64,000 nucleotides of DNA from Desulfuromonadales bacterium. Its GTDB lineage: Bacteria > Desulfobacterota > Desulfuromonadia > Desulfuromonadales > Syntrophotaleaceae. The notes beneath the pieces were generated by a model, which was given only the letters and a program-made list of their open reading frames with translations, searched no databases and was not told where the DNA came from. Of this stretch, positions 26,669 to 47,335 are shown piece after piece; position 1 is the stretch's first letter, and each line of letters opens with the position of its first letter. The position numbers and the translations under genes are program-made. The stretch covers positions 1 through 64,000 of the forward strand of contig JASKKK010000008.1 of the NCBI GenBank assembly GCA_030154185.1. The letters run 5' to 3'.

Positions 26669-28882
26669 ATGAATCAAAAAATTCTCAAACGGGTCAAACG
26701 CAGAGACCGCATTGCCCGCCATGTCATCACGGTGGGCGGGGTGGCGATCATTTTCAGCGTTATCCTGATTCTGTTCCTCATTGCGCGCGTTACCTTCCCC
26801 CTCTTTTCGGGGGCGCAAACGGAACAGGTCGCCAGATTTCCCGTATCGACGGCCCCTGTGGCGGCAGGCCTGGACGATTATCTGGAATACCCCTTTGTCA
26901 TCGACGTGCACGGCGTGGTGCGGTTTTATGCGCCACCCGGCGGAGAGTTGGCGGATGAAATACGTCTGCAGCCCCCGACAGCTGGTAGCGGGATACAGTC
27001 CGTCGAACGGTTTGCCGGTCTGAACTTCGGCGTTTTGTGGGAGGACGGATCGCAGACGCTTGAACAGGTCCGTTTTACGACCCGTTTCGATGAACAGGGG
27101 CAGCGCATCCAGGACCGTCGGATCGCTCGTCTGGCGACGTTTCCTCCTCCTTCCGGAGGTTCGGTGATGGAATCTTTGGTGCGCATTTCCGAGGATGGCC
27201 GCCAGACGCAGGTACTGCTGCTGGATGATGGCAGCCTTCATGTACGACAGGATAGCGAAACCGAAGACCTGTTTGGTAATGTCGAGAAAGAAAGCCATGC
27301 CTTCGTTCTTTCCGGGCTTCCTGATGAAACCATCGCCGCATTGACCATGGATCGACAGGGGACAACCCTTTATGCCGGTACCGATCAGGGTACCTTGCTG
27401 CGCTGGGATCTTTCCGAGCCGGGCGAGGTGGAACTTCTCGATCGTCTGCCGGCCTTTCCTGATCGCCGGGCGATTACGGCGCTGGGCCTGGTTTTCGGTG
27501 ATGTATCTCTGGCTGTCGGCGATTCCGAGGGGGGCGTTTCGACCTGGTTCCCCGTACGGGTTTCCAGCCAAGGAATGCATAAGCAGCTGCAGCGGATTCA
27601 TACGTTGGCTTCCCACAATGCCGCTGTAAAGACGATATATCCCTCCCTGCGGGACAAGTCCCTGATAAGTGTTGATGTTGAGGGGGTGTTGCACCTTGAT
27701 CACATGACCAGCGAACGTCACCTGTTGAGTATCGAAACCGATGCGCCTTTGGTGATCAGCAGCCTGTCTCCCGACGGCCGCGGCCTGGTGGCTGTCGATG
27801 CCGATGGCGGAGCTCATCTCTGGAAGGTGGATAATCCCCATCCGGAGATCAGCTGGAAGACGTTGTTCGGCAAGGTCTGGTATGAAGGTTACGACAAACC
27901 GGAGTACGTTTGGCAGTCGTCTGCCGCAACGGACGATTTCGAACCGAAAATGAGCCTTACGCCATTGATATTCGGCACCATCAAGGGAACCTTTTACGCC
28001 ATGCTTTTTGCGGTTCCCCTGGCGATACTCGGTGCCATATATACCAGTCAGTTCGGTCATCCCCGACTGCGAGGCGTGATCAAACCGGCGGTCGAGATCA
28101 TGGCGGCCATTCCGTCGGTCATCATCGGTTTTCTGGCCGCCCTGTGGTTTGCTCCATTGTTGGAAAAGTCGATTCCCGGGTTGTTTCTAAGTCTTGCCTT
28201 TGTGCCCTTGTTCCTGCTGGTGGCCATTGTTCTCTGGCAGGCGATCTGCAGACACCCGCGCTTAGAGAACCTTGATCGCGGTCTGGAATTTCTGTTGCTG
28301 GCCCCGGTTCTTGTTGCCGCGGTGTTCTGTGCCGTCAAGCTGGGGCCCGTTGCGGAGAGCGCCTTTTTCGAAGGCAACTTCAAACTCTGGCTGTTCGGGC
28401 AGACGGGGGTTCGTTACGACGCGCGAAACAATATCATCATCGCTTTTGCCCTTGGGTTTGCTGTCATTCCGATTATTTTCACCATGGCCGAAGACGCTTT
28501 GTCCAACGTACCCAACAGCCTCAAGGCGGCTTCGCTGGCCCTTGGGGCCAGCCGCTGGCAAACGGTCTGGCGGGTCATCCTGCCCTCCGGCAGCCCGGGA
28601 ATATTTGCCGGTACCATGATCGGATTCGGTCGTGCCATCGGTGAAACCATGATCGTGCTCATGGCGACCGGCAATACCGCCATCATGGATTGGAGTATTT
28701 TCAACGGCATGCGGCCATTGTCGTCGAACATCGCCGTTGAGATACCGGAGGCCCCCGTCGGCGGTACCCTTTATCGGGTCTTGTTTCTGTCCGCCGTTAT
28801 CTTGTTTGTCATGACTTTTATTCTCAACACCGTGGCCGAACTGGTTCGCCAGCGTTTGCGTAAGAAGTACGGCCGGTTTTGA
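26669..28882 (+). CDS. pstC: Phosphate ABC transporter permease PstC with large periplasmic domain
   Basis: At 737 residues this is more than twice E. coli PstC. After TM1 (~22-45) comes a ~380-residue extracytoplasmic region with propeller-like repeats (e.g. TLYAGTDQGTLLRWDLS, GLVAVDADGGAHLWKVD). The permease core follows (~430-737) with EIMAAIPSVIIGFLAALW and the coupling helix region ASLALGASRWQTVWRVILP. Such enlarged PstC proteins occur in Pseudomonas and deltaproteobacteria; the role of the extra domain is not established. ATG 26669 is preferred to GTG 26663 (AAGGTG upstream). Confidence 0.92.
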   Translation: MNQKILKRVKRRDRIARHVITVGGVAIIFSVILILFLIARVTFPLFSGAQTEQVARFPVSTAPVAAGLDDYLEYPFVIDVHGVVRFYAPPGGELADEIRLQPPTAGSGIQSVERFAGLNFGVLWEDGSQTLEQVRFTTRFDEQGQRIQDRRIARLATFPPPSGGSVMESLVRISEDGRQTQVLLLDDGSLHVRQDSETEDLFGNVEKESHAFVLSGLPDETIAALTMDRQGTTLYAGTDQGTLLRWDLSEPGEVELLDRLPAFPDRRAITALGLVFGDVSLAVGDSEGGVSTWFPVRVSSQGMHKQLQRIHTLASHNAAVKTIYPSLRDKSLISVDVEGVLHLDHMTSERHLLSIETDAPLVISSLSPDGRGLVAVDADGGAHLWKVDNPHPEISWKTLFGKVWYEGYDKPEYVWQSSAATDDFEPKMSLTPLIFGTIKGTFYAMLFAVPLAILGAIYTSQFGHPRLRGVIKPAVEIMAAIPSVIIGFLAALWFAPLLEKSIPGLFLSLAFVPLFLLVAIVLWQAICRHPRLENLDRGLEFLLLAPVLVAAVFCAVKLGPVAESAFFEGNFKLWLFGQTGVRYDARNNIIIAFALGFAVIPIIFTMAEDALSNVPNSLKAASLALGASRWQTVWRVILPSGSPGIFAGTMIGFGRAIGETMIVLMATGNTAIMDWSIFNGMRPLSSNIAVEIPEAPVGGTLYRVLFLSAVILFVMTFILNTVAELVRQRLRKKYGRF

Positions 28883-28893
28883 CAGGATCGCAT

Positions 28894-30492
28894 ATGAAGA
28901 GCTTTTGGAAACAAGGTGAACCCTTTGTCTGGGTGACCGGTGCTGCGTTGTCGGTCACTCTGCTTATGGCGATGGTGCTCATCGTCGTCGTACTGGTCAA
29001 CGGTCTTGGCGTTTTCTGGCCGTCTAAGGTGGCAACCGCCAAGCTGCACGATGGCGGAAGCGTTTTGGGGGAAGTGGTGCGCAGCGAGGCTGTTTTCGAA
29101 GGGGAGGGCGAACGGTTGCAGTTCAAGATCGGCAACCGCGAGCTTTACGGGCTCGATTTTCGATGGATCGACAAAACCGATATCTCCAGCATCACGTATG
29201 CGGACGATACCATGGTCCTGGAGCGCATGGAATACGGGAATTTCTATGGTCGGCTTATCGGACTTAGTCCAGAGGCGCAAGCCGTGTCGGGTGGTGGTGA
29301 TGCCGTGCAGCAATTGCGTCAAGCGCATGCGTATGTCATGCAGCAGAAGGATCAGTTGGAAGAATTGGATGACGAGCTGGCTTCCGTCAATTACCGCATG
29401 GATCAATTGCAACGTAAAGAGAAGGCACTGCTTTATAAAGGGCGGTCTCCCTCCGACCCGGAAATTCAGACGCTCCGACAAAAGCGGAACGGTTTGACGG
29501 AAAAGTTTCAATCTCTGCACCAACGCCAGATGAAGCAGGTCACCGAGTTACGAAACTATACCGCGACCTTTACTGATATTTCCGGGACCGATCGCGATAT
29601 GGCCCTGATGGATCTGGTGCGTTTTTATCAGCCCAACAGCATGTCCGTTTTCAGCAAGGTCCGTTATTATCTGATCAAGCTGGTCGAGCTTCTGACCGGC
29701 TCGCCGCGGGAGTCGAACACCGAAGGAGGGTTGTTTCCGGCAATATTCGGTACCGTGATGTTGATTTTCATCATGAGTCTGTTTTCCTTCCCTCTCGGTG
29801 TGCTTGCGGCAATATACCTTCGCGAGTACGCCAAGGAGGGCATGGTGGTGAGAATGGTGCGTATTGCCGTAAACAACCTGGCCGGGATTCCCTCCATCGT
29901 GTACGGCATTTTCGGATTGGCTTTTTTCGTTTATGGTGTCGGAGGCAGTATCGACCGACTGTTCTATCCGGAGCAGCTGCCGACGCCGACTTTCGGTACC
30001 GGCGGCATTTTGTGGGCCAGCCTGACCCTGTCGCTGTTGACCGTTCCGGTGGTCATCGTGGCGACGGAGGAGGCCCTGGGGGCCATCCCCGCCGGGGTGC
30101 GCGAGGGGTCGTTGGCTCTGGGGGCGACCAAATTCCAGACCCTGACGAGAATTCTGCTTCCCATGGCATCCCCGGGCATCATGACCGGGCTGATCCTCGC
30201 CATGGCTCGCGCTGCAGGAGAGGTTGCTCCACTGATGATTACCGGTGTGGTCAAGATCGCGCCGGCACTGCCGGTGGACGGAAATTTCCCCTTTTTGCAC
30301 CTGGACCGGAAATTCATGCACCTGGGTTTTCATATCTACGATATCGGTTTCCAGTCACCCAATGTCGAGGCGGCTAAACCGATGGTCTTCGTGACCACTC
30401 TGCTGCTGGTGCTCATCGTCTTGATCATGAGCAGCGTGGCTATCCATTTGCGCAACAAGATGAAGAAGCGCTATACCTACGGAACTTTTTAG
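28894..30492 (+). CDS. pstA: Phosphate ABC transporter permease PstA with N-terminal extension
   Basis: A 532-residue permease. TM1 (~15-40) is followed by a ~240-residue soluble region that includes a coiled coil (~140-210, e.g. QLEELDDELASVNYRMDQL). The permease core has NNLAGIPSIVYGIFGLAFF and SLALGATKFQTLTRILLP, ending with a basic tail. ATG 28894 follows AGGA and lies 11 bases after the pstC stop. Like PstC it is the enlarged type, suggesting that the two periplasmic extensions interact. Confidence 0.92.
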   Translation: MKSFWKQGEPFVWVTGAALSVTLLMAMVLIVVVLVNGLGVFWPSKVATAKLHDGGSVLGEVVRSEAVFEGEGERLQFKIGNRELYGLDFRWIDKTDISSITYADDTMVLERMEYGNFYGRLIGLSPEAQAVSGGGDAVQQLRQAHAYVMQQKDQLEELDDELASVNYRMDQLQRKEKALLYKGRSPSDPEIQTLRQKRNGLTEKFQSLHQRQMKQVTELRNYTATFTDISGTDRDMALMDLVRFYQPNSMSVFSKVRYYLIKLVELLTGSPRESNTEGGLFPAIFGTVMLIFIMSLFSFPLGVLAAIYLREYAKEGMVVRMVRIAVNNLAGIPSIVYGIFGLAFFVYGVGGSIDRLFYPEQLPTPTFGTGGILWASLTLSLLTVPVVIVATEEALGAIPAGVREGSLALGATKFQTLTRILLPMASPGIMTGLILAMARAAGEVAPLMITGVVKIAPALPVDGNFPFLHLDRKFMHLGFHIYDIGFQSPNVEAAKPMVFVTTLLLVLIVLIMSSVAIHLRNKMKKRYTYGTF

Positions 30493-30504
30493 CAAGGTGA
30501 AGTT

Positions 30505-31287
30505 ATGAGAGACAATAACTCCGTCACCGTGACGGATCCGATTGTGCAAGTGAAGAATCTCGACTTTTATTACGGGACATCGAAGGCTCTGCACGATATC
30601 AATCTGGACTTCCAGCGTAACAAGGTAACCGCTCTGATCGGGCCTTCCGGATGCGGCAAGTCCACCCTGTTGCGTTGCCTGAACCGTATGAACGATCTGG
30701 TGGACGGCGCGCGTGTCGATGGGAGTATCCGTCTGGACGGCACCGAGGTCAACACCGCGGCCATGGATGTCATCGAACTGCGTCGCAGGGTCGGCATGGT
30801 TTTTCAGAAGTCGAACCCCTTCCCCAAATCCATTTACGAAAATGTCATTTACGGTTTGAGAATCGCAGGAGTCCGGGACAAGACCGTGCTGGATGAAACA
30901 GTAGAGCGCAGTCTGCGTAATGCCGCTTTGTGGGAGGAGGTCAAGGACCGGCTGCATGAATCGGCCCTCGGGCTTTCCGGCGGCCAGATGCAGCGCCTGT
31001 GCATCGCGCGGGCCATAGCCGTGAACCCGGAGGTGGTGCTCATGGACGAGCCGTGCTCGGCTCTCGATCCCAAATCGACGGCCCGGGTCGAGGAGCTGAT
31101 CAGTGAACTGCGCGAGAAATACACCATCATCATCGTGACCCACAACATGCAGCAGGCCGCACGGGTTTCCGACTGCACCGCTTTTCTGTTCGAAGGGGTG
31201 CTGGTGGAGTACGGCATCACCGAAAATCTGTTCGTCAAGCCGCGCAACAAGCAGACCGAAGATTATATCACCGGTCGATTCGGTTAA
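30505..31287 (+). CDS. pstB: Phosphate ABC transporter ATP-binding protein PstB
   Basis: A 260-residue ATPase with Walker [10 protein letters not shown] (46-54), Q-loop VFQKSNPFP, signature [14 protein letters not shown] (~157-170), Walker [14 protein letters not shown] and H-loop IIVTHNMQQ. It powers PstCA. It starts 12 bases after pstA and is followed by phoU. Confidence 0.96.
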
Positions 31288-31311
31288 GGCCACCAACATA
31301 AAGAGGTCAGA

Positions 31312-31959
31312 ATGCATATAGCACGGGAAATCGAAAGTCTCAAAAAAAGGGTGCTGACTCTCAGTGCCATGGTCGAGGAAAGTTTCGACCGTTCCGTACA
31401 GGCGCTCAACCGCATGGACGGGGTTCTTGCCCGGCAGGTGATCGATTCGGATATCCTGGTTGACCAGACCGAGGTCGATATCGAAGAAGAATGCCTGAAG
31501 GTTCTGGCGCTTCATCAGCCGGTTGCGAACGATCTGCGGTTTATCATCTCCATCCTCAAAATCAACAATGATCTCGAACGCATCGCGGATCTGGCCGTCA
31601 ATATTTCCGAACGTGTCATCGATCTGCAGAAGATGGAGCGCGCGCCGATCCCCTTCGACTTCACCACCATGTCCCACAAGGTTCATGCGATGGTTAAAAA
31701 GAGTCTCGACTCTCTGGTGAATCTCGATCCGCAGCTGGCCAGGGAGGTTATCAGTCTCGATGACGAAGTCGACGCCATGCACCATGAAACCTATCAACTG
31801 GTGATCGACCAGATAAAGGAGCATCCCGATCGCATCCAGGCGTTGATCTGTTATCTGGTCATTTCCCGCTATCTGGAACGCATTGCGGACCAGTCGACCA
31901 ACATCGCCGAGGATACCCTGTATCTCATCGAAGGCAAAATCGTTCGGCACCAGCTGTAA
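31312..31959 (+). CDS. phoU: Phosphate signalling protein PhoU
   Basis: A 215-residue all-helical protein with two PhoU repeats. Metal/phosphate-linked motifs are seen in each half (DLRFIISILKINNDLERIADLAVNI and CYLVISRYLERIADQSTNIAED). It couples the Pst transporter to PhoR and represses the Pho response when phosphate is high. The last gene of the operon, it is followed by a strong inverted repeat. Confidence 0.95.
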   Translation: MHIAREIESLKKRVLTLSAMVEESFDRSVQALNRMDGVLARQVIDSDILVDQTEVDIEEECLKVLALHQPVANDLRFIISILKINNDLERIADLAVNISERVIDLQKMERAPIPFDFTTMSHKVHAMVKKSLDSLVNLDPQLAREVISLDDEVDAMHHETYQLVIDQIKEHPDRIQALICYLVISRYLERIADQSTNIAEDTLYLIEGKIVRHQL

Positions 31960-32114: not shown

Positions 32115-32690
32115 TTATCCCTTCCCGTTATAAATTTCCCCGCCCAACCGCCGGTACTCCTGCAGCACCGCGACAGCTTTTTTTCGGCAGATATCGCGCA
32201 GCACGCGGACGCCTCGTTTTTCCAGCAACTGCGGCCATCGGGGAGGTTTGTCGCCTTCGTCGAACCCGACGGCGCGCGCATCGCTTTCGCGGGCGCCGCA
32301 TGCCAGCTGTTTCAATCCCGCCCAGGGGATGGCGCCGAGGCACATGGCGCATGGAACGGTGGAAGTGGTCAGTTCGGCATTGAGTCCGGCGGCGGCGAAG
32401 GAGAAATTGTTCACCCGTTTCTGCGCCAGCATCAAAGCCACCATTTCGGCGTGAGCCACCGAACAGTTGACGGAGGTGACCAGGTTGACGCCCGGGGCGA
32501 TCAGTTGCCCGCTGTCGAGGTCGAACACCGCCGCCCCGAAGGGGCCGCCGCTGCCGCGCAGGATATTGCATCTGGCCATCTCGATCACCAGAGACATGCG
32601 ACTTTCCGGCGTGGCGAAGATTCGCTCGGGGGGAGGCAGCATGTCGGCAAGCCAGGTCGGCAGGCAAAGATGAAAAGAGGGGGGGATCAT
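32115..32690 (-). CDS. Nucleoside deaminase (cytidine/deoxycytidylate deaminase fold)
   Basis: A 191-residue zinc hydrolase with the catalytic HAEM and the zinc pair PCAMC, plus FGAAVFD ahead of them. It is the COG0590-type nucleoside/guanine deaminase fold. The C-terminal region FDEGDKPPRWPQLLEKRGVRV is not the tRNA-adenosine-deaminase type, so a free nucleobase/nucleoside substrate seems likelier. ATG 32690 overlaps the FRG gene stop (ATGA), indicating translational coupling. The FRG-domain link is unusual for a housekeeping deaminase. Confidence 0.87.
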   Translation of the reverse strand: MIPPSFHLCLPTWLADMLPPPERIFATPESRMSLVIEMARCNILRGSGGPFGAAVFDLDSGQLIAPGVNLVTSVNCSVAHAEMVALMLAQKRVNNFSFAAAGLNAELTTSTVPCAMCLGAIPWAGLKQLACGARESDARAVGFDEGDKPPRWPQLLEKRGVRVLRDICRKKAVAVLQEYRRLGGEIYNGKG

Positions 32691-33529
32691 GTGCCGTGTC
32701 GCGGAATCTGAGCCTCGACGCCCTGAATCAGTTCACACTCCTCGATGCATCGCGGACTGTAGTGGCGTTTGAGCCATAAACTGAGGCCGTCGAGACCCGG
32801 GAATAGAACCCGTTCGGTGATATTGGATTGATCGAGTTTGTCGCGAATTTCCCATTTAAGTTCGGCCGGGATGATGATTTTGCGCCAGATGGCCGGATGC
32901 TCGCGAAGAAATTCGCACAGGGTTCTTTGGGGATCGGACATGACGGAAAAAAAGGCGAACTGATTGACGATACGATCTTCCATGGATGGCGGTTCGAGGA
33001 ACAGGGCGGTATTGTCTCTGGACAGGGTCTGCAGATCATGCAGGTGGGGAATAGCCTCGTTGAGCATCTCTATGGTAAACACATTGGCGCCTTCCTTGCC
33101 GAGTTTGTCGCGCAGAGGTTTGGGCAGCAGTTGATGGGTTTTGACGTAGTTGACCGCCCAGATGGCACCATCGAGGTCGAATTTGCAAATGTTTGCCGTG
33201 GCAAAGTGCATGGCGATGAGGGGGGAATAGGTCCAATCGAGCAAGCGGGTTGGCAGGCCGTAGTGTTGAGCCACGGACATCCAGTTCCAGAAGGCGTTTG
33301 ATTCCACAGCGGAACGGTGAGCGTATTTTTTGAAATTGCGCATCAGGTGGCGTTCCAGGTCGGCATATTTGCCACCGAGGCGCATCAGGGTTGTTTTCAG
33401 CGTGTAACGGGTATCGGAGAGTCCGCGAAAAGCGAAGCGGGAACGAAATCGTCCGATTTCGTCATTCCACGAATCGGCAAACAGCTCTTTTTGCAACTCG
33501 TCAAAACTGCTGACGCGGATTTCATTCAT
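32687..33529 (-). CDS. FRG-domain protein
   Basis: A 280-residue soluble protein. The FRG domain (~5-125) is recognised from FRSRFAFRGLSDTRYTLKTTL, the ERHLMRNFKKYA helix and WMSVAQHYGLPTRLLDWTYSP. FRG (Fic/RelA/GpsB-like naming aside, an uncharacterised alpha/beta domain with an FRG motif) is frequent in accessory and phage-linked proteins. The function is unknown. Its stop overlaps the deaminase start, and it starts 34 bases after modE. Confidence 0.88.
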   Translation of the reverse strand: MNEIRVSSFDELQKELFADSWNDEIGRFRSRFAFRGLSDTRYTLKTTLMRLGGKYADLERHLMRNFKKYAHRSAVESNAFWNWMSVAQHYGLPTRLLDWTYSPLIAMHFATANICKFDLDGAIWAVNYVKTHQLLPKPLRDKLGKEGANVFTIEMLNEAIPHLHDLQTLSRDNTALFLEPPSMEDRIVNQFAFFSVMSDPQRTLCEFLREHPAIWRKIIIPAELKWEIRDKLDQSNITERVLFPGLDGLSLWLKRHYSPRCIEECELIQGVEAQIPRHGT

Positions 33530-33563: not shown

Positions 33564-34376
33564 TCAGACCATGCCCAGGATCACGCTCGACTCCTGGACC
33601 ACGGCCCAGGCTTCATCGCCTTCATGTAAGTCGAGTGCCTGATCGCTGGCCTTGGTCAGGGTGGCGCTGACCGTGTTGCCGCCCGGTAATTCAAGCGTGA
33701 CTTCGCAGTCGACCTTGCCCTCGACAATGCGCTGAACGGTGCCCTGCAGTATGTTGCAGGCGCTGAGTCGGGCAGAGCCGAGTTCTTTGACGATGATGAC
33801 GGCAGGGGCCTTTGCCATGGCCACAACCTTCGATCCGATTTCCAGGTCAAGGGCTTCGACGCTTTCGTTGGTGATCTGCGACGACAGACGGTCTCCTCCC
33901 TTGAGCTTTATGGTAACCAGGGTATTGATGGCGCCTTTTCGCAGTTGCGCGACTTCGCCGGACCACATGTTGCGAGCGCTGACTTTCATATTGACTTTCC
34001 TCAAAAATTGGTAAAAACCTTCTCCATCTTCCAGATGTTTGCCGATGGAGCTTAAAAAACGCTCGTGTTCTTCCTGGATGAGACGATACCGGCGGATGAC
34101 CTCTTTGCCGGCTTCGGTCAGATGGGTCCCGCCGCCACCGCGCCCGCCGGTCTGTTTGATGACCAGCGGTTGATCGGAAAGGTTGTTGAGCATTTCGATC
34201 TGTTCCCAGGCGGTCTTGTAGCTGATACCGACCGCTTTGCCGGCTTTGGTGATCGATCCGAGTTCCCCGACTTTTTCCAGCAGCCGGATGCGGCTGCTGC
34301 CGAGAAAATCCTGCCCCGATTTTTTGAACCAGAGAGAACCTGTCAGGCTGAGATCCGCTGGATTATTCTTTTTCAC
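33564..34376 (-). CDS. modE: ModE-type molybdate-responsive transcription regulator
   Basis: A 270-residue regulator. The N-terminal winged HTH has SSRIRLLEKVGELGSITKAGKAVGISYKTAWEQI and the GRGGGGTHLTEAGKEVIRRY wing. Two tandem TOBE (molybindin) domains occupy ~130-270 (MKVSARNMWSGEVAQLRKGA and SARLSACNILQGTV). It binds molybdate or tungstate and controls Mo uptake genes. I chose GTG 34376, since AAGGAG lies about nine bases before it; an upstream frame opening would add 24 residues without support. No mod transporter is adjacent; FRG and deaminase genes follow. Confidence 0.92.
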   Translation of the reverse strand: MKKNNPADLSLTGSLWFKKSGQDFLGSSRIRLLEKVGELGSITKAGKAVGISYKTAWEQIEMLNNLSDQPLVIKQTGGRGGGGTHLTEAGKEVIRRYRLIQEEHERFLSSIGKHLEDGEGFYQFLRKVNMKVSARNMWSGEVAQLRKGAINTLVTIKLKGGDRLSSQITNESVEALDLEIGSKVVAMAKAPAVIIVKELGSARLSACNILQGTVQRIVEGKVDCEVTLELPGGNTVSATLTKASDQALDLHEGDEAWAVVQESSVILGMV

Positions 34377-34537
34377 GTAGGGCTGCTCCTTGCTACAGGG
34401 ATAAAAAGGGTTTTTTATTAATTTAGTAGCTTTGAAGCGATAAGGCAAATGTAAATCATTGTATTCGAGAATTCACCTGGGGGGAAATGTATCTGGAAGC
34501 AGGTTGGAGAAGTCGTCTGGGAAACTTGACGGGAAGC

Positions 34538-38587: not shown

Positions 38588-38718
38588 TAAATACCCCGAT
38601 TGGTCACCTGTCTAGCTTTTCCTCCCCTGTGCTATAACTCAACCAAGCGGATTTTCCGCTTCCGCGACGCTTCGCATCCATAATCCATAGAATGGTTGCG
38701 ACCGCATCAACGCGCGGC

Positions 38719-38845
38719 AGTCTCCGAGCCAGGTTTAGCCTAAGGGGATGGTCTTTAGGGCGACTGGCCTAAGGGTCCCGCTGGAAACGGCGGTGCCTCC
38801 CGTGTTTGGAAAGGAGATCAGCCCGGAGTTCCGTTCCTTTTTTTT
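38719..38845 (+). ncRNA. Probable molybdenum-cofactor-type riboswitch with terminator, in the aor leader
   Basis: Starting at TCTCCGAGCCAGG (38721-38733), the leader has a P1 helix (GTCTCC 38720-38725 with GGAGAT 38813-38818). P2 is GCCAG (38728-38732) with CTGGC (38764-38768). A GAAA-tetraloop hairpin, CCGCTG-GAAA-CGGCGG (38778-38793), and the conserved-looking GTGCCTCCCG then GGAAAGGAG follow. From memory these are the hallmarks of the Moco RNA motif (RF01055). AAAGGA (38810-38815) can instead pair with TCCTTT (38835-38840) before eight T, a terminator excluding P1. The aor ribosome-binding site lies just after. Confidence 0.7.
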
Positions 38846-38867
38846 CGCATTGGGAGGAAGAAAAGCT

Positions 38868-40595
38868 ATGCACATTGTTCGCGTCAATATGTCCGACCTG
38901 ACGGTCAAGACCGAGGAAGTGCCCGAAGAATGGAAAACCCTCGGTGGGCGTGCCCTTACCACCACCATCGTTGCGGCCGAGGTCAAACCGACCTGCCATC
39001 CTTTAGGCCCCAACAACAAACTTATCTTTGCCCCCGGTATGCTGTCCGGCACGCCGGCCGCCAACTCCGGCCGCATGTCCTGTGGTGGCAAGAGCCCCTT
39101 GACCTACGGCATTAAGGAATCGAATGCCGGCGGCACGACGGCCCAGCAATTTGCCAAACTCGGCATTCAGGCCATGATCATCGAAGGTATGCCCGCCGAG
39201 GATAAATGGTACCGCCTGCATGTAGACAAGGATGGCGTTACCATTCACGAAGAGACCGAGGTTGTCGGCATGCAGAACTTTGCCGTGATCGGCGAAATGG
39301 AGAAACGCTTCGGTCCCAAAGTCGGTGTAATGACCATTGGTATCCCCGGTGAAAAACGCATGGCTATGGCCAACATTTCCGTCAAGGACCCCGATCACAA
39401 GATCCGTTCCCACGGGCGTGGTGGCATGGGCGCAGTCATGGGTTCCAAAAAGATCAAATGCATCACCGTTGACGGTACCGGTGCCGGCAAGGTGGAGATC
39501 GCCGATCCCGAGAAATTTAAAAAAGCCGCCAAGGTATTTGCCAAGGCACTGCTGGATCACCCGGTCAGCGGTCAGGGCCTGCCCACTTACGGCACAAACA
39601 TCCTGGTCAACATCCTGCATGAAGCCGGTGGCTTGCCGACCAAGAACTTCCGTTATGGGCAATACGAGGATCACGACATGATCAGCGGTGAAACCATGCA
39701 CGATACCATCGTGGCACGTAACGGTCATCCCAAGCATGGCTGCCATGCCGGCTGCATGATCCAGTGTTCCCAGGTCTACAATGACAAAGACGGCAACTAT
39801 CTGACCTCGGGTTTTGAGTATGAAACCATCTGGGGGCTGGGTGCCGATTGCCTTATTGAAGATCTTGACGATATCGCGACCTGCGATAACATCATGGATG
39901 ATATCGGTGTCGATTCCATCGAGGGGGTCGTTACCATGGGCGTGGTCATGGAGGCCGGCATCATCCCCTGGGGAGACGGTAAGGGTGCAATTCGCCTGTT
40001 GCGCGACGAAGTCGGCAAGGGGACTCCTCTCGGACATATCATCGGTAACGGAACGGGATCCGTTGGCAATGCCTACGGTCTGACCCGCGTGCCGGTGGTC
40101 AAAAACCAGGGCATCCCGGCTTACGACCCCCGCTCGGTCAAAGGTATCGGCATCACTTACGCGACCTCGACCATGGGAGCCGACCACACCTCCGGTTACT
40201 GCATCGCTACCAACATCCTGAAGTGCGGTGGTTTTGTCGATCCCTTGAGCAAGGAAGGCCAGGTCGAGTTGTCCCGGAACCTGCAGATCGGTACGGCCTA
40301 TATCGACAGCACCGGTATGTGTGTCTTCGTTGCCTTCCCGATGCTCGACATCCCCGAATGCGCTGAGGCGCTCAATGACATGGTTGCCGCTCGCTACGGC
40401 ATCGAACTCGATAATGAAGGCGTGGCCGAACTCGGTAAGAAAATCCTCAAGCTCGAGCACGAGTTCAACCTGGCTGCGGGCATGAGCAATGTGGATGACC
40501 GGCTGCCGGAGTTCTTCTCCCTTGAACCGGTACCGCCTCATAATGCCATCTGGGATTTCACCGACGAGGAAATCGACGAATTCTGGAATTTTTAA
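38868..40595 (+). CDS. Aldehyde:ferredoxin oxidoreductase-family tungsten/molybdenum enzyme
   Basis: A 575-residue member of the AOR family, which oxidises aldehydes to acids with ferredoxin as acceptor, using a tungsto- or molybdopterin cofactor and one [4Fe-4S] cluster. Seen are the N-terminal domain (GGRALTTTIVAAEV, FAPGMLSGTPAANSGRMS), the cluster region GCHAGCMIQCS and a later Cys (STGMCVFVAF). The Cys spacing is CxxxCxxxC, as in YdhV-like members rather than the archaeal CxxCxxxC type, so the substrate is uncertain. ATG 38868 follows GGGAGGAAG. It is a single-gene transcript between the LuxR regulator and a terminator, with an RNA switch in its leader. Confidence 0.92.
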   Translation: MHIVRVNMSDLTVKTEEVPEEWKTLGGRALTTTIVAAEVKPTCHPLGPNNKLIFAPGMLSGTPAANSGRMSCGGKSPLTYGIKESNAGGTTAQQFAKLGIQAMIIEGMPAEDKWYRLHVDKDGVTIHEETEVVGMQNFAVIGEMEKRFGPKVGVMTIGIPGEKRMAMANISVKDPDHKIRSHGRGGMGAVMGSKKIKCITVDGTGAGKVEIADPEKFKKAAKVFAKALLDHPVSGQGLPTYGTNILVNILHEAGGLPTKNFRYGQYEDHDMISGETMHDTIVARNGHPKHGCHAGCMIQCSQVYNDKDGNYLTSGFEYETIWGLGADCLIEDLDDIATCDNIMDDIGVDSIEGVVTMGVVMEAGIIPWGDGKGAIRLLRDEVGKGTPLGHIIGNGTGSVGNAYGLTRVPVVKNQGIPAYDPRSVKGIGITYATSTMGADHTSGYCIATNILKCGGFVDPLSKEGQVELSRNLQIGTAYIDSTGMCVFVAFPMLDIPECAEALNDMVAARYGIELDNEGVAELGKKILKLEHEFNLAAGMSNVDDRLPEFFSLEPVPPHNAIWDFTDEEIDEFWNF

Positions 40596-40976: not shown

Positions 40977-41594
40977 ATGAGTTGCCCTCATACGCGGCAA
41001 AAAATCCTGGATTGTGCCGAAAAGCTCTTTGCGCGGCACGGTTTTCACGGCACCTCTCTGCGCCGTATTACGGCAGATGCCGGAGTAAACCTCGCGGCGG
41101 TGCATTACCATTTCGGTTCAAAGGATGGACTTGTCGAAGAGGTTTTCAAGCGGCGCATGGGCCCTCTGAACGAAGAACGCATGAGTCGATTGGAAGCTTT
41201 GCGTTCAGGTCCCGGTTTCGATGCGGAGCAGGTGCTGCGGAGCTTTGTCGAACCGACCTTGCGGTTTGCCGAGCAGGGGGAAGGCAACCGTGATTTTCTG
41301 GCTCTGATCGGCAGGGCTTTGATTGAACCGGATGAACAAATACGGCGAATGTTTTTCGATCTGGTTGCGCCTTTGTTCCATCTGTTGCTCGATTTGGTGT
41401 GTGAAGCCCTCCCGCATCTCAGCCGCGACCTGCTTTTTTGGCGATTGCATTTCGCTCTGGGAGCCATGGGGCGCTATCTGTTTCTGGCGGGGCAGCGATC
41501 ATCGATGAACGAAGCCATGGGAACGGTTATACCGGATTTGCCGGCTGGTGACTGCTTGATAGGTTTTATCGTTCGGGGACTGGAGGGTCCATGA
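40977..41594 (+). CDS. TetR/AcrR-family repressor
   Basis: A 205-residue regulator. The N-terminal TetR HTH has TRQKILDCAEKLFARHGFHGTSLRRITADAGVNLAAVHYHFGSKDGL. The C-terminal domain (~85-205) resembles the TetR_C/CecR-type ligand-binding domain. ATG 40977 follows GGAGG. It overlaps the outer-membrane factor gene by four bases and probably represses the whole efflux operon through the palindrome in its own promoter. The inducer is unknown. Confidence 0.93.
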   Translation: MSCPHTRQKILDCAEKLFARHGFHGTSLRRITADAGVNLAAVHYHFGSKDGLVEEVFKRRMGPLNEERMSRLEALRSGPGFDAEQVLRSFVEPTLRFAEQGEGNRDFLALIGRALIEPDEQIRRMFFDLVAPLFHLLLDLVCEALPHLSRDLLFWRLHFALGAMGRYLFLAGQRSSMNEAMGTVIPDLPAGDCLIGFIVRGLEGP

Positions 41595-43027
41595 AACGCT
41601 TCGCTCTCGCAATGGTTTTATTGTTCTCGGCAGGTTGTTCCGTGCATCGGCCCGAGGCTGTCGAACCTGCCATCGACATTCCCCATGCATATCTGGAAAA
41701 CTCGGATACGGTTGCAAGACAGTCCCTGCAACCCTGGTGGTTTGTCTTCAACGATTCCACCCTGAACCGGCTGATGGATCAGGCCTTTGGCGCCAACCTC
41801 GAGTTGGATCAGGCCATCGCCCGCTGGCAGCGGGCAGAGGCGGCCGTCCGCTCTGTAACCTCCGGCCGTCGTCCGACCCTGAGTCTGGAAGCTCAGGGAG
41901 GAAGGCAGCGCCGGGCAAGCTTTCCGGGACCTGTTACCGATGATTATTATAGTCTTTCGGTGGCTGCGGGATTTGAAATCGATCTCTGGGGCAAGCTGGC
42001 TTCCAGGGTCGAGGCGGCGCGGCTGGAACGTGAGGCTGCGGCTGCGGATGTGGATGTTCTCTACCTGGCTTTGTCGGCACGTTTGGCCGATTTGTACTAT
42101 ACGGCCGTGGAGCAGCGGGCTCAACAGGTGTTGCTGGAACAGACCATCGCTTCCTACATCGATATCCTCGAGCGTGTCGAGCGGCGCTATCGGGCCGGCA
42201 TCGTTCCGGCCCTCGATGTATATCAGGCTCGCCAGAATCTGGCCGCCGCCCGTGCCAGACTGCCGCAGGTGGCATCACGCCTGGCGGCATCGGAGCATGG
42301 TGTGGCGGTGTTGCTCGGACGTTATCCCGAACGTGGCAAGGCCGGACAGTTGACGGTTCTGCCGACCCTGGAGAAAAGTTACCCCCCGGGATTGCCTTCG
42401 CAACTGCTGAATACAAGGCCCGATGTCAAGGCTGCTCTTTTACGTGTCAAGGCGGCCGATAAACGGGTCGCAGCCGCCATCGCCGATCGTTTCCCTGGGT
42501 TTAACCTCATCGGAGGTTACGGAGGGTCGGCCGATGCCCCCCGACGGATTTTCGATTCTCCCAATGTTTTTTGGAATCTGCTGCTAAGCATTACGCAGCC
42601 TGTTTTGGACGGTGGGCGTCGTCGTGCCGAGGTGTCCCGCCAGCGGACCGTATTCCAGGAATTGCTGGCCGCTTATCAGGAACGGGTGCTCGAGGCTTTC
42701 CGGGAAGTGGAGGACGCATTGGCGGCAGAGCGTGCCAGCCGGGAGCGGATCCGACAACTGGAGGCGCGCCGCGAGTCGACCGCGGCCGCGCTTCGCCTCG
42801 CTACCGATCAATATTTGCTGGGAGTTTCAGAGTATTTGCAGGTGCTTACCGCACAGGTGCTTCATCTGGAGACCGAAAGCAGCTTGCTGGCGGCTCGTCG
42901 TCAAATCATCGCTGATCGTATCTCTCTTGGCCGCGCCCTGGGGGGACGCTGGATGATGCGGCAACGACGGCAAAGGGGCAGGTTTGCGGATGATCTCCCG
43001 AGGGAGGATGTCAGTCATGAAGAGTAG
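41591..43027 (+). CDS. Outer-membrane efflux lipoprotein (NodT/OprM family)
   Basis: A 478-residue outer-membrane channel component. A lipoprotein signal ends in the lipobox LFSAGC (Cys acylated at ~16). The two repeated OEP domains follow, with LNRLMDQAFGANLELDQAIARW and RRYRAGIVPALDVYQARQNLA, plus FEIDLWGKL. ATG 41591 overlaps the TetR gene stop. It forms the trimeric channel partner of the RND pump encoded next. Confidence 0.92.
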   Translation: MKRFALAMVLLFSAGCSVHRPEAVEPAIDIPHAYLENSDTVARQSLQPWWFVFNDSTLNRLMDQAFGANLELDQAIARWQRAEAAVRSVTSGRRPTLSLEAQGGRQRRASFPGPVTDDYYSLSVAAGFEIDLWGKLASRVEAARLEREAAAADVDVLYLALSARLADLYYTAVEQRAQQVLLEQTIASYIDILERVERRYRAGIVPALDVYQARQNLAAARARLPQVASRLAASEHGVAVLLGRYPERGKAGQLTVLPTLEKSYPPGLPSQLLNTRPDVKAALLRVKAADKRVAAAIADRFPGFNLIGGYGGSADAPRRIFDSPNVFWNLLLSITQPVLDGGRRRAEVSRQRTVFQELLAAYQERVLEAFREVEDALAAERASRERIRQLEARRESTAAALRLATDQYLLGVSEYLQVLTAQVLHLETESSLLAARRQIIADRISLGRALGGRWMMRQRRQRGRFADDLPREDVSHEE

Positions 43028-44201
43028 GTTCTGGATTCGCGTTGTCGCTCCGATCGTCATTTTACTGGCAGGGGTTGCGATCATGGCCCTGTTGATTTAT
43101 TTGCGCAAGGCACCGCCACGCCAGCCGAAGGAAAATCCCGGAATCCTGGTCGATGTAATGATCGGCCGCGCCCGGAAACACCGGGTGCAGGTTGCCGTGA
43201 CCGGTACGGTACAGCCTCGCCGAGAAGCCCGCATTACGCCCCAGGTCAGCGGTAAGGTGACCTGGATGAATCCGAGATTCATTGCCGGAGGGTTTTTCGC
43301 CGAGGGAGAACAGATGTTTCGTATCGAGGATGTCGATTATCGTCTGGCCGTGGAGCAGGCCACGGCACAGCGCGCTCGCGCCGAACTCGATCTCCTCACC
43401 GTTCAAAGTCAGGCCCGTATCGCCCGCCGGGAATGGCAGCGTCTGAATGCCGGTGGCAAAGAGGAACCTAATCCTCTGGTGGTTTACGAACCCCAGTTGA
43501 AAAATGCCCGTGCGACGCTGGCAGCGGCCGAGGCGGCGGTAAGCAAGGCGCGGCTGGAACTTGAACGTACCGTGGTGCGCGCCCCGTTCAATTGTCTGGT
43601 ACGTTCGGAGCAGGTCGATATAGGCCAATACCTGACGGCCGGGGTGACGGTGGGGCAGGTGTTCGGCACCGATCGTGCGGAAATCATCGTGCCGCTGCCT
43701 CTCGAGGAATTGGTTTGGTTGCAGGTGCCGCGCTTCGAAGGGCAGAAGCCGGGGGCCCAGGCTCAAATCATCATGGATGGAGGGCGACGGGAATATGTCT
43801 GGCAGGGGCGGGTGGTACGGTCCCTCGGCGAAGTCGATGCGCGAGGGCGTATGGCCAGGTTGGTCGTATCTGTGGATGACCCCTTTTACCTAAAAAAACC
43901 TGCTCCCGACGACAGGCCCCCCTTGAGCCCCGGCCTGTTCGTGGATATTCGCATCGACGGTCGAATTCTCGACGATATCGTTCCGGTGCCGCGCGAAGCG
44001 GTGCATGAAGGGGATGTCGTCTGGGTGGCCGGCGATGACGGTCTGTTGCATATACGCAGAATCGAGGTTGCGCGCCGGGAACGCAAACAGGTGCTTGTTT
44101 CCGGGGGTATCGAGGATGGCGAGCGCATTGTCCTGACTCTGCTCAGCGGTGTCGCAGATGGGCTCAAACTGCGCATTGCCCCGGCGGAGGCACGGCCATG
44201 A
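43017..44201 (+). CDS. RND efflux periplasmic adaptor (membrane fusion protein)
   Basis: A 394-residue inner-membrane-anchored adaptor. The TM is ~8-27; barrel-sandwich/lipoyl halves are GTVQPRREARITPQVSGKV and RTVVRAPFNCLVRSEQV around an alpha-hairpin (~105-175), then a beta-barrel and a membrane-proximal domain. I chose ATG 43017 because GGGAGG lies nine bases before it; in-frame ATGs at 42984 and 43008 are upstream. It overlaps the channel gene by 11 bases and the pump gene by four. Confidence 0.92.
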   Translation: MKSRFWIRVVAPIVILLAGVAIMALLIYLRKAPPRQPKENPGILVDVMIGRARKHRVQVAVTGTVQPRREARITPQVSGKVTWMNPRFIAGGFFAEGEQMFRIEDVDYRLAVEQATAQRARAELDLLTVQSQARIARREWQRLNAGGKEEPNPLVVYEPQLKNARATLAAAEAAVSKARLELERTVVRAPFNCLVRSEQVDIGQYLTAGVTVGQVFGTDRAEIIVPLPLEELVWLQVPRFEGQKPGAQAQIIMDGGRREYVWQGRVVRSLGEVDARGRMARLVVSVDDPFYLKKPAPDDRPPLSPGLFVDIRIDGRILDDIVPVPREAVHEGDVVWVAGDDGLLHIRRIEVARRERKQVLVSGGIEDGERIVLTLLSGVADGLKLRIAPAEARP

Positions 44202-47200
44202 AACAGGCCATCCGCTGGATGACGGAAAACCACGTTGCCGCAAACCTGCTGATGCTGGTTTTCGTGGTCGGCGGGCTGATTATCGGTCTGGCGGTTCAGC
44301 AGGAGGTGTTCCCCGAGGTGGCTCTGGACAAGGTCCAGGTTTCCGTCGCTTATCCGGGCGCCGGGCCGGAAGAGGTGGAAGACGGCATTCTGCTCAAGAT
44401 CGAGGATAACCTCACCGGTGTCGACGGCATCCGACGGCTGCGTTCTCAGGCCATCGAAGGATACGGCACGGTGACGGCCGAATTGCGCACCGGCGCCGAC
44501 GCCAATGTGGTGCTGCAGGATATCAAGACCGAGGTCGATCGCATCATCTCCTTTCCGGAACAGGCTGAAAAGCCCATCGTTACCAAACTTCTTAATCGTC
44601 GTCAGGTGGTTTCGGTGATGGTCTATGGCGACCTTTCGGAGCGCAGCCTGCGTGAATTGGCCGAGCAGGTCCAGAACGACCTGCTGTTGATGCCGAACAT
44701 CACCCAGGTCGACCTGGCCGGCGTACGACCCTATGAAATCTCGGTGGAAATCCCCGAAGCCAATCTGCGACGTTACAATCTGACTCTCGAGCAGGTGGCC
44801 CAACGCATCCGGCAGGCATCGAGGGATATCCCGGGAGGGACCATCAAAACCCGCGGCGGCGAGATCCTCGTGCGGACCAAGGAACGTCGTTACACGGGAC
44901 CGGAATACGAACCCATCACGATCCTGGCGGCTGCCGACGGTACAGACGTCCGCCTCGGGGATATCGCCGCGGTGCGCGATACCTTTCGTGAGACGGATGA
45001 GGAGTTGCTTTTCGATGGCCTGCCGGCGGCCATGGTGCAGGTTTTCCGGGTCGGGGACCAGAAGCCGACGGATATTTCCGAGACCGTCCGGAATTATGTG
45101 CGACGCAAGCGGCAGGATCTGCCGTCTTCGGTAGGACTGGCCATGTGGAACGACGACTCGGAAATTTTCCAGAGCCGTATGAACCTGCTGACCCAAAACG
45201 CCTGCTTCGGACTTTTGCTGGTACTGATTGTCCTCGGTTTGTTTCTGGAGGTGCGCTTGGCCCTGTGGGTCATGCTCGGCGTGCCCATTTCGTTTTTGGG
45301 GGCGCTGTTTCTGATGCCGGCGATAGGGGCCTCCATCAATATGATTTCCCTGTTTGCCTTTATCATGGCCCTGGGCATCCTGGTCGACGACGCTATCGTC
45401 GTCGGTGAAAATGTCTTCGAACATCGCCAGCGCGGCAAGCCTTATCTGCAGGCGGCGATGGACGGGGCGGTAGAAGTGTCGGTGCCGATCGTTTTCGCCA
45501 TTCTGACGTCCGTCGCGGCTTTTTCGCCCCTGTTGTTCATTTCCGGCACCATGGGTAAATTGATCTGGACCATTCCTTCGGTGGTGATTTTGCTGTTTCT
45601 GGTGTCGCTGGTGGAGTCGCTGTTCGTACTGCCGGCCCATCTGGCCATCGGACAGCCCCGCACCGTGCAGGGGCGGGTGCTGACCGCCATAGAGGGCGTG
45701 CGTAAAAAATTCGGTCATCAACTGCAGCGATTCATTGACGGCCCCTACGGCAGGACATTACGTTTCGCTCTGTTTTATCGTTATGCCACAGTCGCCACGG
45801 CTTTGGCGGTGCTGATGCTGTGCCTGGGTCTGATTGGGGGCGGCATCATCAAGTTCGGGTTCATGCCCAAGGTGGAGGGAGATATTATCCTCGTCAATCT
45901 GGAGATGGCACCGGGCACGCCGGTGGCGCGCACCCGGAAGGTGGCGGAGCTGATCCTTGAGCGGGGGCGCGAAACCATTGACGCTTTCGACCGGCAACTG
46001 CCCGAGGGAGGGAGCATCCTGCGCAACATGTTTTCTCTGGTCGGCAGCAGTCTCAGCGGCGGCGGATCGCACCTGTCGACCATCGCCGTGTTCCTCACCC
46101 CGGGAGAGCAGCGGGATATCGGCGCGGCTGAGGTAGCGGCGGATTGGCGGGAAAGGGTGGGCGAAGTACCGGGTGTGGAGTCGTTGGTTTTCAGCACCGA
46201 CCTTGTAAAGCTCGGGGCCAATATCGATATTCAACTGGCCCACGATAGTTTTGAGGTGCTGCAACAGGTTTCCGAAAAGGTCAAGGTGCTGCTGGGCGAG
46301 TACCCGGGCGTTAAGGATATCGCCAGCAATTACGTGCGCGGCAAGCGCGAGCTGAAAATTCGTCTCAAGCCCGAGGCGCGCACTCTGGGCATTACCGAGG
46401 CCGGCCTCGGTAGCCAGTTGCGGTCGGCGTTTTACGGGGCCGAGGCATTACGCCTGCAACGTGGACGCAACGAGGTGCGGGTGATGGTGCGTTACCCGGA
46501 AGACGACCGGCGGCATCTGGCCGATCTGGAGAACCTGCGGGTGCGTACTCCCGATGGCGGGGAAGTCCCGCTGAGTCGCGCCGCCGAGGTCGTCGGCGGA
46601 TACGGTTTCAGCAGTATCAATCGAGCTGATCGCAAGCGGGTGATCAATGTTTCGGCGGATGTCGACAGCCGGCAGGGTAATGCCGAGGAAATCCGTGAGC
46701 ATCTGAGGGAAACCGTTCTGCCGGCGCTGATGAACGCCTACCCCGGACTCAGTTACGATATGGAAGGCGAGGCGCGCGAACTCAATGAAGTCAAGAGCAG
46801 CATGGGGCGGGGTTATCTGCTCGCACTGTTCGGTATCTTCGCCCTGCTGGCCATCCCGTTCCGTTCTTACAGCCAGCCGTTGCTGATCATGGTGGCCATT
46901 CCCTTCGGCATCGTCGGCGCCGTTTTCGGGCATGTGCTGATGGGGTATGATCTGAGCATCATGAGCGTGTTCGGCATTGTCGCCCTGTCCGGTGTGGTAG
47001 TCAACGATGCGTTGCTGCTCATCGATTATGTGAATGTGCGCAGGCGGGTCGGGGATACCTTGCACGAGTCCCTTCTCGAAGCCGGTCGGCGGCGTTTCCG
47101 ACCGATTCTTCTTACCTCTCTGACCACCTTTTTCGGTTTGATGCCGATGATCCTGGAAACCAGCATGCAGGCCAAGTTTCTCATCCCCATGGCCATCAGC

Positions 47201-47335
47201 CTCGGTTTCGGCATCATGTTTGCCACCGGCATTACGCTGCTGCTGATTCCGGCCATGTATCTGGTGCTGGAGGATGTGCGGCGTATGCTGGGGCTGCGTC
47301 CGGAGCATGCCAATCACCGCCAGGCAGGAGAATGA
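44198..47335 (+). CDS. RND-family efflux pump inner-membrane transporter
   Basis: A 1045-residue proton-driven pump with the AcrB-like layout: TM1 (~12-30), a large periplasmic domain, TM2-6, a second periplasmic domain and TM8-12. The conserved TM4 reads SLFAFIMALGILVDDAIVVGENVFEH, with the paired acids of the proton relay. GVVVNDALLLIDYVNVRR lies in the second half. Substrate class (drug or other amphiphile) cannot be set, but it is HAE-like rather than heavy-metal (no CzcA metal motif). It ends 73 bases before ttcA. Confidence 0.93.
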   Translation: MKQAIRWMTENHVAANLLMLVFVVGGLIIGLAVQQEVFPEVALDKVQVSVAYPGAGPEEVEDGILLKIEDNLTGVDGIRRLRSQAIEGYGTVTAELRTGADANVVLQDIKTEVDRIISFPEQAEKPIVTKLLNRRQVVSVMVYGDLSERSLRELAEQVQNDLLLMPNITQVDLAGVRPYEISVEIPEANLRRYNLTLEQVAQRIRQASRDIPGGTIKTRGGEILVRTKERRYTGPEYEPITILAAADGTDVRLGDIAAVRDTFRETDEELLFDGLPAAMVQVFRVGDQKPTDISETVRNYVRRKRQDLPSSVGLAMWNDDSEIFQSRMNLLTQNACFGLLLVLIVLGLFLEVRLALWVMLGVPISFLGALFLMPAIGASINMISLFAFIMALGILVDDAIVVGENVFEHRQRGKPYLQAAMDGAVEVSVPIVFAILTSVAAFSPLLFISGTMGKLIWTIPSVVILLFLVSLVESLFVLPAHLAIGQPRTVQGRVLTAIEGVRKKFGHQLQRFIDGPYGRTLRFALFYRYATVATALAVLMLCLGLIGGGIIKFGFMPKVEGDIILVNLEMAPGTPVARTRKVAELILERGRETIDAFDRQLPEGGSILRNMFSLVGSSLSGGGSHLSTIAVFLTPGEQRDIGAAEVAADWRERVGEVPGVESLVFSTDLVKLGANIDIQLAHDSFEVLQQVSEKVKVLLGEYPGVKDIASNYVRGKRELKIRLKPEARTLGITEAGLGSQLRSAFYGAEALRLQRGRNEVRVMVRYPEDDRRHLADLENLRVRTPDGGEVPLSRAAEVVGGYGFSSINRADRKRVINVSADVDSRQGNAEEIREHLRETVLPALMNAYPGLSYDMEGEARELNEVKSSMGRGYLLALFGIFALLAIPFRSYSQPLLIMVAIPFGIVGAVFGHVLMGYDLSIMSVFGIVALSGVVVNDALLLIDYVNVRRRVGDTLHESLLEAGRRRFRPILLTSLTTFFGLMPMILETSMQAKFLIPMAISLGFGIMFATGITLLLIPAMYLVLEDVRRMLGLRPEHANHRQAGE

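Follow-up and report, generated by a model that had tools for sequence, protein, structure and literature searches.

The locus raises the question of which RNA precedes a gene for aldehyde:ferredoxin oxidoreductase (AOR), which cofactor it would sense and by what expression platform it would act. The original prediction had proposed a molybdenum cofactor (Moco) riboswitch-like RNA regulating a single tungsten/molybdenum enzyme gene through a terminator that overlaps the aptamer's P1 helix.

The aptamer, its gene and the P3 site

In an Rfam covariance-model scan of the window (the whole 64-kb stretch of DNA that was analysed), the only riboswitch match is RF01055, upstream of aor. It covers 38710-38832 (+) at full length (model positions 1-135) with 68.0 bits and an E-value of 2.9e-14, well above the gathering cutoff of 36; the assignment to a Moco-like RNA therefore holds under the covariance-model check that had been proposed for it. 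A model built from relatives gives the window aptamer 92.6 bits, with the window included in its training set. A search of a plasmid collection for the leader returned no match.

From P1 to P1 the aptamer spans 38721-38817 (+). The Rfam alignment places the 5' strand of P1 (CUCC) at 38722-38725 and its 3' strand at 38813-38816; the former is also recovered by RNAalifold on 31 relatives. P2 (38728-38768) and the P4 hairpin (38773-38798), which carries a GAAA tetraloop at 38784-38787, are supported by the Rfam alignment, folding and RNAalifold. P2 contains the counterpart of the tetraloop receptor, in which CCUAAG is present and UUAGG is its partner in place of UAUGG. The P5 3' side and the P1 3' strand together form GGAAAGGAG (38808-38816; Rfam alignment and folding), for which a downstream UUCC/U-rich segment is an alternative partner. 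The RNA thus combines a score above gathering with the features of the class: the conserved core, a GNRA loop on P4, the P2 receptor and a W/Mo gene downstream. The core motifs, tetraloop, P1 strands and T8 tract were all found where the original prediction had placed them.

The downstream gene, aor (38868-40595, +; 575 aa), encodes an AOR with Pfam domains AFOR_N (E 3e-63) and AFOR_C (E 4e-70), in agreement with the predicted W/Mo enzyme. Its closest solved chains are the AORs 9mqx, 9g7j, 1aor and 8c0z, several of which are named tungsten enzymes. A ModE-like molybdate-responsive regulator with ModE and Mop domains, a possible second regulator, is encoded about 4 kb upstream of aor (33564-34445, -). 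Also in the window are phosphate transport genes (28879-31959; PstA-like permease, PstB and PhoU), an FRG-domain protein with no role assigned (32687-33529, -) and, at 40977-47335, a TetR regulator followed by genes for an outer-membrane efflux protein and an RND pump (HlyD-type and AcrB-type).

The RF01055 class is sorted by the presence or absence of P3, and its GNRA loop caps P4 (Regulski et al. 2008, PMC2408646). In the Rfam alignment of the window aptamer the P3 hairpin is deleted, and four bases, CUAA (38769-38772), alone join P2 to P4. P3 is absent from 31 of 31 aligned sequences (the window and its relatives); as a positive control, several aptamers in three Firmicute genomes have P3, GGGCUUUAAGCCC, at this point (L187, L190). 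A P3-bearing window aptamer was ruled out on these grounds. The hairpin that Tuco variants lack had been reported as present because the GAAA hairpin, which is P4, was mistaken for P3. RNAs without P3 (58 of 176 in 2008) have been linked by correlation to use of the tungsten cofactor (PMC2408646). The view that metal preference was open rested on the same misreading and gives way: since P3 is absent, the tungsten cofactor is the probable ligand by the published correlation. Judged by its alignment and by the tungsten-linked genes with which it occurs (AOR here, TupA among relatives), the window RNA is a P3-lacking, Tuco-type member of RF01055, which fits the tungsten enzyme encoded downstream.

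The ribosome-binding site of AOR leaders

To compare leaders, the relatives-built model was run over 80 AOR loci and the RF01055 matches of 58 related genomes. Once identical sequences were removed, 108 aptamers remained, of which 70 precede AOR-family genes and 38 other genes. In the short AOR leaders, the start codon lies 31-52 nt past the modelled aptamer end. The aor Shine-Dalgarno sequence in the window, GGGAGG (38852-38857, +), is complementary to CCUCCC (38796-38801, +), a strand made up of the end of P4 and the start of P5. GGGAG occurs at the ribosome-binding site of 62 of the 70 aptamer-bearing AOR leaders vs. 6 of 38 AOR relatives lacking the aptamer (as a loose background, 45 of 150 GGAG-type sites). 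With AGGAG in place of GGGAG, pairing with the aptamer's CCUCCC would be weaker by 3.9 kcal/mol, and that with 16S rRNA would stay within 0.2 kcal/mol. As the change weakens the aptamer pairing and spares the 16S pairing, these comparisons suggest that pairing with the aptamer is the best explanation for the unusual G of GGGAG. Counter-cases are a few Geobacteraceae AOR genes that have no aptamer and retain GGGAG (L051, L058, L060, L081), and eight aptamer-bearing AOR leaders without GGGAG.

The CUCC:GGAG pairing is present in all 44 distinct leader pairs, although CCUCC is also the anti-Shine-Dalgarno sequence of 16S rRNA, making part of this complementarity unavoidable and leaving the weight to GGGAG vs. 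AGGAG and to the flanks. In about 15 leaders the complement extends to 9 bp (CUCCCUUUC:GAAAGGGAG). The base next to the helix covaries, being U-A in Geobacter-type leaders and, in many of the Syntrophotalea type, A-U or G-U (31 of 2000 shuffles reach the value), as does a second flanking position (12 of 2000); these shuffles ignore the shared ancestry of the leaders and are supporting rather than decisive. With so little variation in CCUCCC and GGAG, covariation is modest. Pairing energies of 16-nt segments average -12.0 kcal/mol for a leader's own segments vs. -11.7 kcal/mol for swapped ones (18 of 2000 permutations), a measure to which we prefer position-wise counting.

Folding was computed in silico without ligand or tertiary contacts. 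In the growing chain of the window leader, P1 forms with a probability of 1.00 at completion of the aptamer. This drops to 0.04 when the U-rich segment has been added and to 0.00 with the ribosome-binding site in place, at which point CCUCCC:GGGAGG reaches 0.88. In the unconstrained leader, 38796-38801 pairs with 38852-38857 at a probability of 0.75-0.88. With the core aptamer helices forced, mean pairing of the ribosome-binding site falls: in the window it is 0.44 instead of 0.90, and the average over 64 leaders is 0.55 instead of 0.83. Since CCUCCC is the end of P4 and the start of P5, the aptamer fold and pairing of the ribosome-binding site are mutually exclusive, and a ligand-stabilised aptamer would free the site. 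The features of ribosome-site sequestration are found here: a site complementary to the aptamer, mutually exclusive folds and conservation across leaders.

We propose that this P3-lacking, Tuco-type riboswitch is probably a translational ON switch of one tungsten-enzyme gene; both the direction and the translational level of control are predicted from the modelled folds. Without ligand, CCUCCC would pair with GGGAGG, hiding the ribosome-binding site and leaving the aptamer unfolded, with assistance from an inner helix that GGAAAGGAG would form with the UUCC/U-rich segment downstream. When the tungsten cofactor is bound, CCUCCC and GGAAAGGAG would be locked in P4, P5 and P1 and the ribosome-binding site freed, so that AOR synthesis would be confined to conditions of cofactor availability.

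Terminator, direction and ligand: alternative readings

Alternatively, control could be transcriptional, with the hairpin at 38808-38837 and the T8 tract (38838-38845) terminating transcription unless ligand-stabilised P1 removes GGAG. The layout fits this: the 5' arm of the hairpin is the aptamer's GGAAAGGAG, T8 follows directly, and in relatives an acetaldehyde dehydrogenase gene is preceded by the same arrangement, there with strong hairpins of -29 to -33 kcal/mol (L118, L120, L124, L127). A Thermincola AOR leader has a similar hairpin of -15.7 kcal/mol, its aptamer match scoring close to or under the gathering cutoff. The window's own hairpin is weak by comparison (-8.2 to -9.4 kcal/mol; z -0.28 vs. 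shuffled sequence), and a terminator scan of the leader region gave no hit where chance alone would yield 0.7. In the four closest orthologues (L017, 96%; L114, 95%; L033, 94%; L034, 92% identical over the matched protein part), GUUCC is retained and TTTTTTTT is replaced by ATTAATTT, ATTTATTT, TGTTATTT and TGTGATTT. Among 67 AOR leaders in which no more than 70 nt separate aptamer and start codon, a T-run longer than six was found in the window only. The original prediction had set as its own test that orthologous aor leaders should conserve the pairing between P1 and the terminator, and this test fails. The P1-overlapping layout does occur in the same family with strong terminators, before acetaldehyde dehydrogenase genes. 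The leader lacks the stable GC-rich hairpin with a U-tract and conserved P1 overlap expected of an intrinsic-terminator platform. As the main platform the terminator was rejected as weak and not conserved, and leader comparison argues against it as a conserved feature. A weak, lineage-specific terminator may nevertheless act in the window (38808-38845). Its 5' arm includes the P1 strand, so that, if real, it would also give an ON switch, and it could add to the ribosome-site mechanism in the same direction. We consider a transcriptional ON switch improbable.

Somewhat less probable still is an OFF switch, in which the ligand-folded aptamer would free UUCC (38834-38837) to pair with GGAA of the ribosome-binding site, and the cofactor would repress AOR. 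With the aptamer forced, the site stays largely paired in several Syntrophotalea-type leaders (L004, L007, L010, L015, L017), which makes the direction less clear in these; L017, L010 and L015 in particular speak for the OFF reading, as does the Moco RNA of Escherichia coli moaA, an OFF switch (PMC2408646). On the other hand, Geobacter-type leaders have GGGAG without the UUCC segment, and repression of an enzyme by its own cofactor is hard to rationalise. The OFF reading also runs against physiology: in Pelobacter carbinolicus, the AOR proteins Pcar_0665 and Pcar_0456 are more abundant with tungstate, and AOR activity in a benzyl viologen assay rises 36-fold (PMC4275255). One genome of the window's genus (G004) encodes two AORs that are 75.44% identical, the published value for the P. 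carbinolicus pair being 75.4%. This match and the map position lead us to infer that P. carbinolicus is the source of G004 and that Pcar_0665 is preceded by L017, the leader of the G004 AOR that is 96% identical to that of the window; L017 is the same leader without the T-run. The published tungstate data and the predicted translational ON switch agree. The rise in AOR protein could also reflect the stability of the protein or the action of a different regulator, for example ModE.

As to the ligand, the RNA might sense the molybdenum cofactor, or both cofactors equally, with loss of P3 a trait of the lineage rather than a switch in specificity; this would fit either platform. The rule relating P3 to the cofactor is a correlation, deletion of P3 in E. 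coli abolished control and did not switch specificity (PMC2408646), and P3-lacking RNAs are near-universal in the sampled Desulfobacterota, whichever gene follows. In the open-access literature we found no direct ligand test of P3-lacking RNAs since 2008, and Tuco sensing stands as a correlation. However, the downstream genes, AOR and TupA, are tungsten-linked, and in P. carbinolicus full AOR expression was not reached with molybdate alone (PMC4275255). We regard a molybdenum or dual ligand as unlikely, if less so than either alternative platform, and retain the tungsten cofactor as the probable ligand of the translational ON switch.

Possible opposite outputs from one aptamer strand

RF01055 matches twice more in the window's own genome: one aptamer (L002) lies upstream of a second AOR paralogue, 74% identical, and the other (L003) upstream of moeA. 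In the moeA leader (L003, 1510-1740) the aptamer is followed by GGGAGG overlapping a terminator (GGTTCTTTCC...GGAGAGAACC-T5), about 300 nt before the moeA start. Across relatives, leaders before tupA, moeA, moaA and related genes mostly have a clear terminator separate from P1, one segment of which is complementary to the aptamer strand. This segment is CUUUCC vs. aptamer GGAAAG in Desulfuromonadales and AACACGGG vs. CCCGUGUU in other Desulfobacterota. In the moaA group the pairing covaries as CCCGUGU:ACACGGG, CCCGUGC:GCACGGG and CCCCGCGC:GCGCGGGG (L164, L179, L182). Over 65 leaders, chiefly of the tupA/moeA/moaA type with a few others, the mean complement is 7.2 nt within a leader vs. 6.5 nt when swapped (0 of 2000 permutations). 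Automatic terminator finding misplaced the hairpins in L003, L116 and L152, and those leaders were read by eye. In the transport and biosynthesis leaders, ligand binding would capture the antiterminator strand in the aptamer fold and turn the gene OFF.

We put at about even the chance that, in Desulfuromonadales, one conserved aptamer strand (CCUCCC...GGAAAGG) switches AOR ON via the ribosome-binding site and transport/biosynthesis genes OFF via terminators, balancing tungstoenzyme synthesis against cofactor supply, with a sister genus adding a terminator-based ON switch for acetylating acetaldehyde dehydrogenase.

Several other leaders were observed alongside. L118, L120, L124 and L127, from the window's family, combine P3-lacking aptamers with the strong terminators noted above, in which the P1 strand serves as the 5' arm. 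In three of them the next gene encodes an acetylating acetaldehyde dehydrogenase, and L124 ends before the gene; these leaders are likely transcriptional ON switches for a tungsten-independent enzyme. A P3-lacking aptamer and a strong terminator also precede a TonB-dependent receptor gene (L026, 1510-3107; L115; L129), a candidate for outer-membrane uptake of tungstate or a tungsten chelate. Tandem P3-lacking aptamers occur before a phosphate-selective O/P family porin (L012/L140, L024/L139, L142), possibly a tungstate porin. In the Firmicute AOR leader (L192, Thermincola; L105, 1741-1830), a degenerate aptamer match of 35-38 bits is accompanied by a hairpin and then T4, overlapping the P1 3' strand.

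Translational riboswitches in which ligand binding frees a sequestered ribosome-binding site are a known kind. By analogy, the aor leader would resemble them in that aptamer and anti-ribosome-site pairing are mutually exclusive, and it differs in ligand and aptamer. It shares with the class of Regulski et al. 2008 (PMC2408646) a full-length RF01055 match, the conserved core, a GAAA-capped P4, the lack of P3 and a tungsten-enzyme gene. The platforms described there are terminators and a ribosome-binding site inside P1 (OFF, E. coli moaA); in the window, unlike these, the site lies 35 nt beyond P1 and pairs with CCUCCC, and an ON output is predicted. Both the aptamer class and its location before aor genes of this genus are already published: Moco-type riboswitches were predicted upstream of P. 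carbinolicus aorA1, aorA2 and aorA3 (Aklujkar et al. 2012, PMC3543383). This is the same RNA, found upstream of orthologous genes within the genus, and L017 precedes the 96% identical AOR. The available text of that paper predicts transcriptional control and gives neither mechanism nor direction, while the orthologous L017 has no T-run. In the literature searched, whose coverage is incomplete, we found no earlier description of a ribosome-site ON platform.

If the proposed mechanism is true, an ON leader for a tungstoenzyme and an OFF leader for biosynthesis in one genome would provide a paired test of ligand, metal selectivity and direction. A one-base change of GGGAGG to AGGAGG should then break the switch without weakening the ribosome-binding site. 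The mechanism would also offer an explanation, at the level of the cofactor, for tungstate-dependent AOR in Pelobacter.
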